64,000 nucleotides of DNA from Citrobacter amalonaticus (GTDB taxonomy: Bacteria > Pseudomonadota > Gammaproteobacteria > Enterobacterales > Enterobacteriaceae): contig JARDVN010000001.1 in NCBI GenBank assembly GCA_028994555.1, forward strand, positions 496,001 to 560,000, written 5' to 3'. Both the position numbers and the translations under genes were made by a program. Under the pieces are notes generated by a model. That model was not told where the DNA came from. It made no database searches and worked only from the letters and a program-made list of their open reading frames with translations. Positions 519 through 12,758 of this stretch are shown piece by piece (the first letter of the stretch is position 1; each line of letters opens with the position of its first letter).

Positions 519-1256
519 TCAGGCGGACAAACCGCCGTCCAGCACCAGCGTCTGACCGGTGAGATAACTACCCCCTTCCCCGGCCAGAAACGCAACCGCA
601 CGAGCGACATCCTGGGTGCGCCCGAGACGACGCAAAGGAATATTCTGCCGCATCGCTTTTAACCGGGCTTCCGGAATGGCCTGCACCATTTCACCTTCAA
701 TCAATCCCGGAGCCAGACAGTTTACCCGAATGCCAAACCGGCCCACTTCTCGCGCCAGCGAGTGCGTCAGACCAATCATCGCCGCCTTGCTGGCCGCATA
801 GGCCGTCTGCCCGCTGTTGCCTTTAATGGCCGTCACGGACGACATAAACACAATCGAACCACTGCCCTGGGTCATCATGGCAGGCAGCAGGATGCGATTC
901 CAGTTCACTACCGCGACCAGATTGTTTCCCAGCACGTCCTGCCAGTCGCGCGCGTTCTGGTGGATGTGCAGCGCGTCATTGGTCATGCCAGCGTTATGGA
1001 CGATGGCAGTGGGCGCGCCATACGCTTCAAGCAGCGACGTGGCGAGCTGCGCAACGCTGGCTTCATCGCTACCGTCGCAACGAAACCCTTTCACCCAGGT
1101 CGAGGTACTCCGACTTTGCGCGAGATCCAGCGTACGGGCAATTCCGGCCTCATTACGCCCGGTAAAGACAATATTCCATTCGGGCAGCAGGTGGTTCACC
1201 AGCGCCTGGCCGATTCCCCGACTGCCGCCGGTAATGAGCATCCATTTCTTTGCCAT
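519..1256 (-). CDS. 3-oxoacyl-ACP reductase (FabG-like short-chain dehydrogenase)
   Basis: A short-chain dehydrogenase of 245 residues. It has the NADP-binding glycine motif TGGSRGIG near the N-terminus, NNLVAVVNWN in the middle, a catalytic Ser in FMSSVTAIKG and the YAASK Tyr-Lys pair, and ends in a GQTLVLDGG-type tail typical of FabG. The expected reaction is NADPH reduction of a 3-ketoacyl chain on acyl carrier protein. The start ATG at 1254-1256 was chosen over one eight codons upstream because it lies directly after the stop of the carrier-protein gene (1258-1260). It is the last gene of the minus-strand operon and sits with a ketosynthase, dehydratase and carrier protein, so it probably works on a dedicated acyl chain and not in housekeeping fatty acid synthesis. 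Confidence 0.85.
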   Translation of the reverse strand: MAKKWMLITGGSRGIGQALVNHLLPEWNIVFTGRNEAGIARTLDLAQSRSTSTWVKGFRCDGSDEASVAQLATSLLEAYGAPTAIVHNAGMTNDALHIHQNARDWQDVLGNNLVAVVNWNRILLPAMMTQGSGSIVFMSSVTAIKGNSGQTAYAASKAAMIGLTHSLAREVGRFGIRVNCLAPGLIEGEMVQAIPEARLKAMRQNIPLRRLGRTQDVARAVAFLAGEGGSYLTGQTLVLDGGLSA

Positions 1257-1257
1257 A

Positions 1258-1509
1258 TCAACCTGCCATTTCCTGCGCAATACGTTCGCTGAGTTCGCGA
1301 AGCGTCATGGTTGGATTTTTCATAAACATTTCAGGGTTGATCGTGACGTTAAACTCACGTTTCGCCAGCACCATCAGCTCAACGTAATCGAGGCTGTCCA
1401 GTTCCAGCTCAGGCAGTGTCGTCTCTGGCGTCAGCGCCTCCGGCGCCAGGTCTTTTGCGTCACAGATCATTTCACTGATTTTGTCGTAGATCATTTCATG
1501 CTGGCTCAT
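1258..1509 (-). CDS. acyl carrier protein, operon-specific
   Basis: An 83-residue acidic protein with the phosphopantetheine attachment motif LELDSLDYVELM; the Ser of DSL is the predicted modified residue. Length and motif fit the acyl carrier protein family, but the sequence is clearly not housekeeping AcpP. It overlaps the upstream dehydratase gene by 14 bases and abuts the downstream reductase start, so the three are probably translationally coupled. It would carry the chain built by the neighbouring ketosynthase, reductase and dehydratase. No dedicated phosphopantetheinyl transferase gene is visible in the window, so a host enzyme would have to activate it. Confidence 0.88.
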   Translation of the reverse strand: MSQHEMIYDKISEMICDAKDLAPEALTPETTLPELELDSLDYVELMVLAKREFNVTINPEMFMKNPTMTLRELSERIAQEMAG

Positions 1510-2299
1510 TTGATTTTCCTTCTGTCAGCGCACCGACTTTAAGCGTCACGGCATTGCTAATGTAGTGATGTTGATAACAGGTTCGCGCGGCGATTCGCAC
1601 CACCATCGCGCCACTTGCAAGGTCGCCAACCACCAGGGCCGGCAAGGTGTCAATCTCAAGGTTTTCCGGTAGCGACTCTGCTCGCCAGGGGGCCAGCAGA
1701 TGGCTGTCGAAAATGACTTCCTGATGGGTCTGTACAACAGGAAAGTGAGAAAACAACGCCTCCAGCGTCCGACACGTCGGCAGCATGTCGGCAATAGCCT
1801 GCTGGCGTAACAGCGCGGTATCCTGGAGAAGATGACGAAACAACAGGGCGTCGAGAAAATGCCATTGCTGAGCGTCGGGAAGTAGCGATTTGAACGTCTG
1901 GTGTAACGCGGCCAGCGCCGACGAATCCAGAACCCGCTGACTTTCTCCATTCGCTAACGGCAGGTGTTTCTCCGGCATGATCTGGCAGGAAAGGCAGGTC
2001 TCTTCGGCAGATAACTCACGCACCGACGCCGCAACGCGCTTATTCGCATCGCGCGTCAGGCGATAGGCAGTATCCCGCCACAGCGGTCGGCGCAGACGCA
2101 CGGTACATTTCAGATACGGGGCGTCGTCGACCGGTGGACTGATAAACCGCTTTACGTCCAGCAAGACGCGCATACCATGCACGCTGAGCCCGCTCCCGCC
2201 CCGCGCTTTCACCCACGACTCGTCAAAATGCACCGGGTTGTAATCGCCCGAAAACGCGGCCCAGCGCCGGGCATCCTGGTGGCCATAATGAAGCGGCAT
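1496..2299 (-). CDS. MaoC/hot-dog type acyl dehydratase
   Basis: A 267-residue protein. Its N-terminal segment has FSGDYNPVHFDESW followed by GLSVHGM, matching the MaoC/R-hydratase signature in which the Asp and His of the D-Y-N-P-V-H stretch are catalytic. It should dehydrate or hydrate a 3-hydroxyacyl chain on the adjacent carrier protein. The start was set at the ATG at 2297-2299, which overlaps the ketosynthase stop (2299-2301) as ATGA; a longer frame upstream merely shadows the ketosynthase. The remaining 200 residues are less recognisable and may be a second, degenerate hot-dog half, consistent with a double hot-dog length (inference). Confidence 0.75.
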   Translation of the reverse strand: MPLHYGHQDARRWAAFSGDYNPVHFDESWVKARGGSGLSVHGMRVLLDVKRFISPPVDDAPYLKCTVRLRRPLWRDTAYRLTRDANKRVAASVRELSAEETCLSCQIMPEKHLPLANGESQRVLDSSALAALHQTFKSLLPDAQQWHFLDALLFRHLLQDTALLRQQAIADMLPTCRTLEALFSHFPVVQTHQEVIFDSHLLAPWRAESLPENLEIDTLPALVVGDLASGAMVVRIAARTCYQHHYISNAVTLKVGALTEGKSNEPA

Positions 2300-12010: not shown

Positions 12011-12038
12011 CTCTGTTTTCCTTACTTAGGTTTAATAT

Positions 12039-12083
12039 GGTGCAATCACTTGCACCGCTCGTTCGGCAAATGCCAGTGCCGAA
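12039..12083. promoter_or_regulatory. two inverted repeats upstream of the peptide gene
   Basis: In the 88-bp gap between the LuxR-type gene and the peptide gene are two perfect inverted repeats: GGTGCAA-TCAC-TTGCACC at 12039-12056 and TTCGGCA-(8 nt)-TGCCGAA at 12062-12083. Neither is followed by a T-run on the minus strand, so a plain intrinsic terminator is unlikely. They could be binding sites for the adjacent LuxR-type regulator, or RNA hairpins that protect or separate the short, probably highly expressed peptide message. No convincing -10/-35 pair could be assigned. Confidence 0.45.
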
Positions 12084-12098
12084 AAGATTTTTCACGGT

Positions 12099-12758
12099 TC
12101 ACGGCATAATTCCTTTAAACACCGTGAATAACGCAATGTTGTTTCTGATATTCAGCCGCTTCATTAAGTGCCGCTTGATATAGCTCAGACGTCGGACATC
12201 GATATTCACCTCACAGGAAATCTGCGACAGCGATTTTCCTTTGAATATCTCTTCCATCAGCCACCATTCATTGCCGGAAATCGTATAATTCACTTCCCGG
12301 CGGTGCAGTCTTCTGCGCGTATAATTCACCAGCGAGGTGCTAAAGCAGCATCCCTGACGTTGGTTATCCAATAAATCCTGAAAAAAAGGGGTGGTATTGG
12401 CAAGATTCTCGCTTTTCAATAACCAGTGAGCGTGAGGCAAGAGCGAATAAAGCGTGAAAAACAGCGGCATGTTGTGCTCGCTTAATAAAATCACCAGACT
12501 CTTATTTTCACGCTGATAGAAATTATTCATGAGCTTCAACGCACGGATCCGCTCACGCGGCAGGCTATCCAGATCGCAGAGTATCCACTGGCAGCAGTCA
12601 TCATTAACCCGGGTTTGTAATTGCTTAATCAGTTGCGCGTAATCATCCGTCAAGGAGTAAAAAACGTCCGTCTGCTCTGCGAGCAAACTGGCAATCACCG
12701 TTTTTATTCCTTGCGAAAAAAAGAGATCTTTACTGTAAAGAAAACACTGATACACCAT
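12099..12758 (-). CDS. LuxR-family transcriptional regulator
   Basis: A 219-residue protein whose C-terminal 60 residues form a LuxR/FixJ-type helix-turn-helix (SGNEWWLMEEIFKGKSLSQI, then NIDVRRLSYIKRHLMKRLNI). The N-terminal part resembles a receiver fold (LCDLDSLP near the usual phospho-acceptor strand) but lacks an obvious complete acidic pocket, so it may be a pseudo-receiver as in many fimbrial and capsule regulators. It begins 24 bp after the last fimbrial subunit and ends 88 bp before the peptide gene, so it could be the last gene of the fimbrial operon, the first of the peptide operon, or a link between them. Confidence 0.75.
   Translation of the reverse strand: MVYQCFLYSKDLFFSQGIKTVIASLLAEQTDVFYSLTDDYAQLIKQLQTRVNDDCCQWILCDLDSLPRERIRALKLMNNFYQRENKSLVILLSEHNMPLFFTLYSLLPHAHWLLKSENLANTTPFFQDLLDNQRQGCCFSTSLVNYTRRRLHRREVNYTISGNEWWLMEEIFKGKSLSQISCEVNIDVRRLSYIKRHLMKRLNIRNNIALFTVFKGIMP

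Follow-up and report, generated by a model that had tools for sequence, protein, structure and literature searches.

In the 64,000-nucleotide stretch of Citrobacter amalonaticus DNA analyzed here (positions 496,001 to 560,000 of contig JARDVN010000001.1, assembly GCA_028994555.1; hereafter, the window), a gene cassette on the minus strand encodes, in the order of transcription, a LuxR-type regulator, a precursor peptide with a double-glycine (GG) leader, a membrane-anchored DsbA-like oxidoreductase, an acyltransferase (AT), a C39 peptidase ATP-binding cassette (ABC) exporter, a MacA-like adaptor, a MacB-like transporter, a TolC-family outer membrane protein (OEP), a ketosynthase (KS), a dehydratase (DH), an acyl carrier protein (ACP), and a ketoreductase (KR). 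The initial annotation of the window had named these genes, and all of them were found to be present, co-directional, and mostly overlapping, with Pfam matches to the expected families for all but the AT, those of the DH and of the GerE domain of the regulator being below the cut-off.

The precursor peptide gene (11810..12010, 66 aa; all coordinates of the cassette are on the minus strand) was assigned to DUF4762 (PF15959) by its Pfam match (1.9e-22) and by alignment, and a probable attenuator hairpin of 11 bp (11774..11801), recognized by a stem conservation test, lies directly 3' of its stop codon. The open reading frame (ORF) of the DsbA-like protein (11078..11809; PF01323, 2.2e-10) carries the CHYC motif; its listed start (TTG, 11809) is too far upstream, the homology to the Citrobacter sedlakii locus L002 spans 11081-11749, and the real start is probably near 11749. 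The AT gene (10122..11072), recognized by the predicted PatA/LpxM fold of its product and by an invariant H..SD motif, is followed by the C39-ABC exporter gene (8004..10122; PF03412, 2e-26), read in two frames (8419-10122 and 8004-8318), by the MacA-like adaptor gene (6854..7961; HlyD_D23/HlyD_3), whose N-terminal portion is in a different frame, and by the MacB-like transporter gene (4919..6850; MacB_PCD and FtsX), for which the NF007826 score of 710 bits is below the cut-off of 966. Further downstream are the OEP gene (3551..5093; PF02321), in two frames, and the FabF-like KS gene (2299..3554), in three frames with Pfam pieces of the N and C ketoacyl-synthase domains; the intact KS of locus L001 is nearest to FabF-type KS among its PDB matches. 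The MaoC/hot-dog-type DH gene (1496..2419; PF01575, 8.8e-5, below cut-off; homology over 1514-2302), the ACP gene with its DSLD motif (1258..1509; PF00550, 2.2e-12), and the KR gene, of the short-chain dehydrogenase/reductase type (519..1280; PF13561, 2.1e-52), complete the run. The LuxR-type regulator gene (12099..12758; GerE, 7.8e-4, below cut-off) stands between the peptide gene and a fimbrial operon.

Compared with L002, the window shows two frame changes in KS, one each in OEP, MacA, and C39-ABC, and four in the neighboring usher, and because of these changes in the record the five proteins are readable only piecewise. As the changes are spread over unrelated genes, sequencing indels are a plausible cause, and decay may be the alternative. 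The nearest relative of the window AT is 97% identical and is named Citrobacter amalonaticus. Scans of the window for promoters and terminators found no more of them than in shuffled sequences (4 versus 6.6 and 15 versus 15.1, respectively).

Conservation and variant forms of the cassette

A pattern scan with the AT alignment A1 over the genomes of 84,980 species, one per species, identified 56 loci, from Citrobacter, Enterobacter, Trabulsiella, Klebsiella, Erwinia, Pantoea, Hafnia, Providencia, Yersinia, Serratia, Rahnella, and others, several carriers bearing insect- or plant-associated species names. The genes for AT, C39, MacA, MacB, OEP, KS, and ACP were found by tblastn in one order in 56/56 loci, far more often than a chance co-location would allow; since the loci had been chosen by their AT, this agreement is not a free test. 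A peptide ORF is present in all 55 loci that reach far enough upstream (L025, the sequence of which begins within AT, is left out for peptide and DsbA), DH and KR in 51/56, and the LuxR-type regulator cluster in 21/56. Catalytic motifs are largely retained across the copies, some of which are broken or truncated (e.g., L026 and L055). Clustering of the ORFs of at least 80 aa showed no further conserved one in the cassette. In the five Serratia loci lacking DH and KR (L048 and L050 to L053), a conserved tyrosine-recombinase-like ORF of 182 to 195 aa, its function read by eye, occurs 3' of the cassette.

A test not selected by AT, on 392 genomes of one family, found PF15959 in 41 genomes, AT in 48 (one of them a weak match), and both in 40. 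In the sole peptide-only genome (G683), the peptide ends about 120 bases from the contig end. Of the eight genomes with AT but no PF15959 match, four encode a divergent version of the peptide (L127, L128, L130, and L131) and two a different GG peptide (L125 and L126); no peptide was found in L129, and the AT match of G750 is weak. Order-wide, PF15959 occurred in 7/394 genomes and AT in 10/394; class-wide, AT occurred in 2/369, namely, G001 and the weak match G928. As for the expectation of the initial annotation that all the genes co-occur, 40 of the 41 peptide-bearing genomes also have the AT, and the expectation fails for the chain genes (KS, DH, ACP, and KR), which are absent from L138 and L139, and for DH and KR in the five Serratia loci. 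Thus, the independent occurrence of acyl genes and peptide/exporter genes, by which its proposal was to be refuted, was observed in part, as a loss of chain genes, the AT being never apart from the exporters in the mapped loci.

The variant cassettes delimit the unit. Type 2 cassettes (L125, L126, and L143, the last on plasmid pE41) encode a different GG peptide, which has two cysteines; no DsbA was seen, and the order is peptide-MacA-MacB-OEP-KS-DH-ACP-KR-AT-C39. L127 and L131 have two-cysteine peptides with DKHG, no DsbA match, and complete chain genes, and L138 and L139 retain GG peptides, AT, C39, MacA, and MacB, without a DsbA match and without the chain genes. It follows that GG peptide, AT, C39, and MacAB form the fixed core, since the variants exchange the peptide or lose DsbA or the chain genes; the chain genes are optional. 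Near a type 2 cassette, C39, adaptor, and TolC-like genes with two small microcin-like ORFs were read by eye (L149:9712-15499). In L129 (10893-11087) and L144 (11795-11989), AT is preceded by a small ORF, the last 40 or so residues of which are nearly identical between the two; no DsbA and no GG peptide were found there.

On plasmids, a protein search of 72,556 records found AT in 14 and the L001 peptide in none. In a near-identity DNA search, plasmids yielded a single match of 99 bases, in MacB, and E. coli genomes yielded no match. The E. coli plasmid p0A3_5 encodes a distant GG peptide with DKHG about 4 kb past KR, the upstream regions of L140, L141, and L142 showed no GG peptide, and the cassette of one E. 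coli plasmid was found by megablast in 9/5426 complete E. coli genomes. Decayed copies are represented by L142, a Salmonella plasmid copy in which the genes for C39, MacB, and TolC are split, and by L150, an E. coli chromosomal remnant with a truncated KS beside an IS3 element.

Precursor peptide, acyltransferase, and exporters

Across an alignment of 52 peptides (51 of them from 49 loci, and that of the window), the GG of the leader, three cysteines, Lys47, and Gly49 (alignment columns) are invariant, and a fourth cysteine and Asp46 are each present in 51/52. The strict peptide pattern had missed six loci (L012, L013, L016, and L022 to L024), whose peptides were recovered in the upstream-ORF survey. 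Among 81 distinct peptides, the motif [DNG]-K-x-G is present in every one, 79 by pattern and those of L127 and L131 as L-D-K-H-G; it is kept in two peptides that have lost two cysteines, as well as in the E. coli plasmid peptide. The mature part contains two (2 peptides), four (43), five (30), or six (6) cysteines, so that the five cysteines noted by the initial annotation are not a feature of the system: four are conserved, and five or six occur in 36/81 peptides. Outside the four cysteines and the [DNG]-K-x-G turn, conservation of the mature peptide is slight. The AlphaFold2 model, of moderate quality (predicted local distance difference test [pLDDT] of 67, about 80 in the core), has three strands and places Lys44 of the KxG turn between strands 32-43 and 46-54, and a PDB sequence search with the peptide profile gave no match. 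From its conservation, the invariant lysine of this turn is predicted to be the acylation site; the N terminus, whose amine is always present, was set aside as the favored site because the first mature residue varies. Orphan peptides of the DUF4762 kind were also noticed away from any cassette in five genomes with an AT elsewhere (L120:9447; L121:9818; L122:9717; L123:8945 and 9550; L124:9912 and 10500), and one 6.0-Mb genome (G704) has three AT matches and four PF15959 peptides.

A stem of at least 9 bp follows the peptide stop codon in 43 of the 50 sequences examined, from 49 loci and from the window, compared with 1.4% of dinucleotide-type shuffles and 4/49 sequences at the DsbA/AT junction. 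Based on this conservation test, and not on the terminator scan of the window, the hairpin is probably an attenuator that would keep the output of the peptide above that of the machinery. Furthermore, DsbA is present in 55 upstream-complete loci, all with peptides of four or more cysteines, and was not found with peptides of zero to two cysteines, either by tblastn (L125, L126, L127, L131, L138, and L139) or by annotation (L143); its presence thus tracks with peptides of four or more cysteines.

The window AT has no Pfam and no NCBIfam match, its predicted model matches the PatA/LpxM fold, and a PDB search with the AT profile gave two weak matches (E values of 0.26 and 0.55). The relation to LpxL-type enzymes depends mainly on this fold; in addition, one relative (P0130) matches PF03279, and lauroyl/myristoyl acyltransferase is among the source names. 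The textbook catalytic motif of LpxL/PatA-like acyltransferases is HX4D/E. In the cassette enzyme, the motif is H..SD (HX3D), invariant in alignments A4 and A5 (L127 and L130 being omitted from A4 and included in A5) and in 55/55 copies. Hence, the overall fold of its model is that of the LpxL/PatA-like enzymes, but, given the HX3D spacing, we file the AT by fold only and not as a member of that family; of the LpxL-like acyltransferase named in the initial annotation, the fold is retained and a sequence-family match for the window AT is lacking. The enzyme differs from PatA and LpxM in motif spacing, in family assignment, and in its predicted peptide acceptor. Public labels of the cassette products are DUF4762 family protein, hypothetical protein, and ABC transporter, the last being often given to the AT.

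The C39 motif ECGLAC was found in 44/44 copies examined, in agreement with a dedicated C39 peptidase-ABC exporter. Asp is usual in the C39 NPA motif at the position where 40/44 copies have Asn (VMNPA/VINPA). Class II microcin loci have a CvaA-type adaptor for the C39 exporter; the only adaptor in the cassette is MacA-like and adjoins MacB. With MacB_PCD, FtsX, and ABC domains, an adaptor, and an OEP, the cassette encodes the components of a MacAB-TolC tripartite pump.

Pilus operons upstream of the cassette

The region delimited by the initial annotation left out a chaperone-usher fimbrial operon directly upstream (12782..19668, minus strand; PF00419 on two genes, homology to L002), with which the likely biology of the cassette changes. 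It comprises FimA-like subunits (about 18369-19668), the usher in five pieces (15827-18308, by homology to L002), the chaperone (15042-15782), and subunit and adhesin genes (12782-14990). An usher cluster is located upstream of the cassette in 35/56 loci, in addition to the window. In ten carrier genomes (four known to be fimbrial and six taken from the stronger PF15959 matches, thus an illustration and not a sample), there are 121 usher matches in roughly 50 Mb, which gives a chance of about 1% for a same-strand usher within 7 kb upstream; such an usher was seen in 10/10. Across 32 loci, the usher distances correlate with those of AT, KS, and MacB (r of 0.92, 0.90, and 0.97, respectively; 0/2000 permutations each), and it is therefore likely that a single composite was inherited.

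Pili of other classes were also found. In L143/L147, a CS1-type fimbrial operon (TcfC, CooC_C, and Fimbrial_CS1) lies directly upstream of the peptide gene, and in L022/L145, a type IVb pilus operon (TcpA, CofB, T2SSE, T2SSF, and prepilin peptidase) lies near it. Helix-turn-helix regulators and members of the adhesin-biosynthesis regulator family are found near the E. coli copies. The adjacency of pilus operons suggests that the cassette may be functionally coupled to pili. In Providencia, an O-antigen-ligase/PglL-like gene, with Pfam support on L015 only, stands between the fimbrial operon and the peptide gene (L015:7260-8930, also L017 and L020).

A predicted secretion system and the alternatives

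We favor, with moderate confidence, the view that the cassette serves to secrete a lipidated peptide with disulfide bonds and is often used together with a surface pilus; peptide acylation, its site, the two-step route, attenuation, and a coupling to pili are the predicted parts of this view. The GG precursor would be made in excess over the machinery by means of the attenuator hairpin, and the inner-membrane AT would acylate it, most likely on the invariant lysine in the [DNG]KxG hairpin turn. The chain would come from the dedicated ACP and be set by KS, DH, and KR together with housekeeping fatty acid synthase partners. The C39-ABC exporter would then cleave after GG and pass the peptide into the periplasm, in place of Sec, the membrane DsbA-like protein would form two disulfides, and MacA-MacB with the TolC-type channel would export the product, as MacAB-TolC does with STII. 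This view is favored by the conserved gene order, the co-occurrence of peptide and AT, the invariant [DNG]KxG motif, the tracking of DsbA with the cysteine count, the hairpin, and the nearby pilus operons, by the predicted fold of the AT, which is that of acyl-transferring enzymes, and by the three cassettes with a different GG peptide (L125, L126, and L143), which keep AT, C39, MacAB, and the chain genes. The initial annotation had come to a similar reading, which stands as to the conserved unit of peptide, oxidoreductase, AT, exporters, and chain genes and has to be relaxed in its strict form, chain synthesis being optional.

The arrangement shares elements with several known systems. For the heat-stable enterotoxin STII, PMC5985334 describes a peptide with two disulfides that acquires its fold through DsbA in the periplasm and leaves by way of MacAB-TolC; the cassette would share with this pathway the disulfide folding and the MacAB-TolC-type exit and would differ in the C39 entry instead of Sec, in its own DsbA-like protein and MacAB, and in the predicted acylation. 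The lipolanthines, goadvionins, selidamides, and nostolysamides likewise combine a ribosomal peptide with an acyltransferase. According to PMC13060382, such lipidated ribosomal peptides are modified by GNAT enzymes, and in nostolysamides and selidamides the side chain of a lysine or ornithine is lipidated. Their enzymes are GNAT acyltransferases, mostly accompanied by lanthionine synthetases, whereas the cassette enzyme has a model fitting PatA/LpxM and no Pfam match, and the cassette has a GG leader, cysteines for predicted disulfides, and no lanthionine synthetase among the genes scanned. RTX toxins undergo acyl-ACP-dependent lysine acylation by HlyC-type enzymes before type I export, to which the predicted acylation of a secreted polypeptide is akin; the cassette differs in its enzyme family, small peptide, GG leader, and second step through MacAB.

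Several observations weigh against the favored view. The AT could act on another acceptor, peptide acylation being a prediction, and its HX3D spacing departs from the catalytic motif of the acyltransferases that it resembles; moreover, the first mature residue varies across the 81 peptides (T in 51, C in 9, N in 5, and others). L138 and L139 lack the chain genes, and the five Serratia loci lack DH and KR; no peptide was found near L129 and L144, and in the absence of a further conserved ORF of that size, there is no immunity candidate of at least 80 aa. As to the pili, 21/56 loci, including Serratia, Rahnella, and Pantoea allii, have no upstream usher (among them, L025 starts inside the AT gene and L036 has less than 3 kb upstream), so that a pilus is not a required partner; the 35 loci with fimbrial genes seem to go back to a single inherited composite and not to 35 events. 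In L139, the CS1-type operon is about 2 kb away, with transposase-like fragments in between, and in L022, a StcE/TagA-type metalloprotease gene on the opposite strand (5667-8051) separates the type IVb operon from the peptide.

The question of the acceptor leads to an alternative that we regard as rather unlikely, in which AT and the chain genes serve to modify a lipid or glycolipid of the envelope, for instance, for producer protection or pump priming, and the peptide is exported unmodified. PatA and LpxM, the nearest folds of the AT model, act on lipids, and no immunity candidate of at least 80 aa was found. Glycolipids are among the MacB substrates mentioned in PMC5985334. However, the AT stays with GG peptide, C39, and MacAB where the chain genes are absent (L138 and L139), it also stays with the other peptide type (L125, L126, and L143), and the lysine turn is invariant in 81/81 peptides. 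A free polyene or pigment of the aryl polyene kind, made by KS, DH, ACP, and KR and unrelated to the peptide, appears very improbable: the same enzyme types do occur in aryl polyene clusters, but these also contain a ligase, an MMPL exporter, and several KS genes, and an aryl polyene island was set aside as the cassette has no further conserved gene of at least 80 aa to supply them. Furthermore, the chain genes are in one run with the exporters, and the protein distances of KS follow those of AT (correlation of 0.98).

An ordinary class II microcin locus of the CvaAB-TolC type, which would kill competitors and in which the extra genes would be accessory, shares with the cassette the GG leader (52/52 aligned peptides), the C39 peptidase-ABC exporter with ECGLAC, and the Enterobacterales host; the hairpin after the structural gene and the orphan peptides of five genomes would also fit such a locus. 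We consider it improbable, since AT, MacB, and KS are as regularly present as the exporter, and no candidate of at least 80 aa for the cognate immunity gene of a class II microcin was found in the cassette, whose additional parts are AT, ACP/KS/DH/KR, MacB, the membrane DsbA-like protein, and, in many loci, a pilus operon; a word search of the main text of a class II microcin survey of Enterobacterales (PMC9746304) found no MacB, acyl, or DsbA. A peptide that acts on the host surface in pilus-mediated colonization, as an adhesion partner or host-active factor with the lipid as a membrane anchor, is compatible with the favored secretion system and differs from it in the target; we hold it to be possible, though doubtful. 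Nearby pili of three classes, the StcE/TagA-type protease beside L022, the regulators near the E. coli copies, and the STII precedent of a cysteine-rich peptide exported by MacAB-TolC (PMC5985334) speak for it, whereas the insect- or plant-associated names of several carriers and the usher-less loci speak against it, and adjacency shows no function.

The gene set is apparently widespread in gut and plant bacteria and undescribed: our searches of open-licence literature showed no description of it and no paper that mentions DUF4762. Tentatively, and with low confidence, it can be hypothesized that the cassettes represent an unrecognized class of Enterobacterales lipopeptides, in which a PatA/LpxM-fold enzyme acylates the turn lysine, two exporters operate in series, and the product acts with at least three unrelated pilus classes in attachment, peptide, DsbA, and chain genes being interchangeable around a core of AT, C39, and MacAB. 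If the proposed system is real, roughly one in ten genomes in the family sample would carry a secretion system whose product we found nowhere named, ribosomal peptides would have another route to lipidation, a MacAB pump would have a dedicated peptide substrate, and peptide secretion would be linked to adhesion pili.

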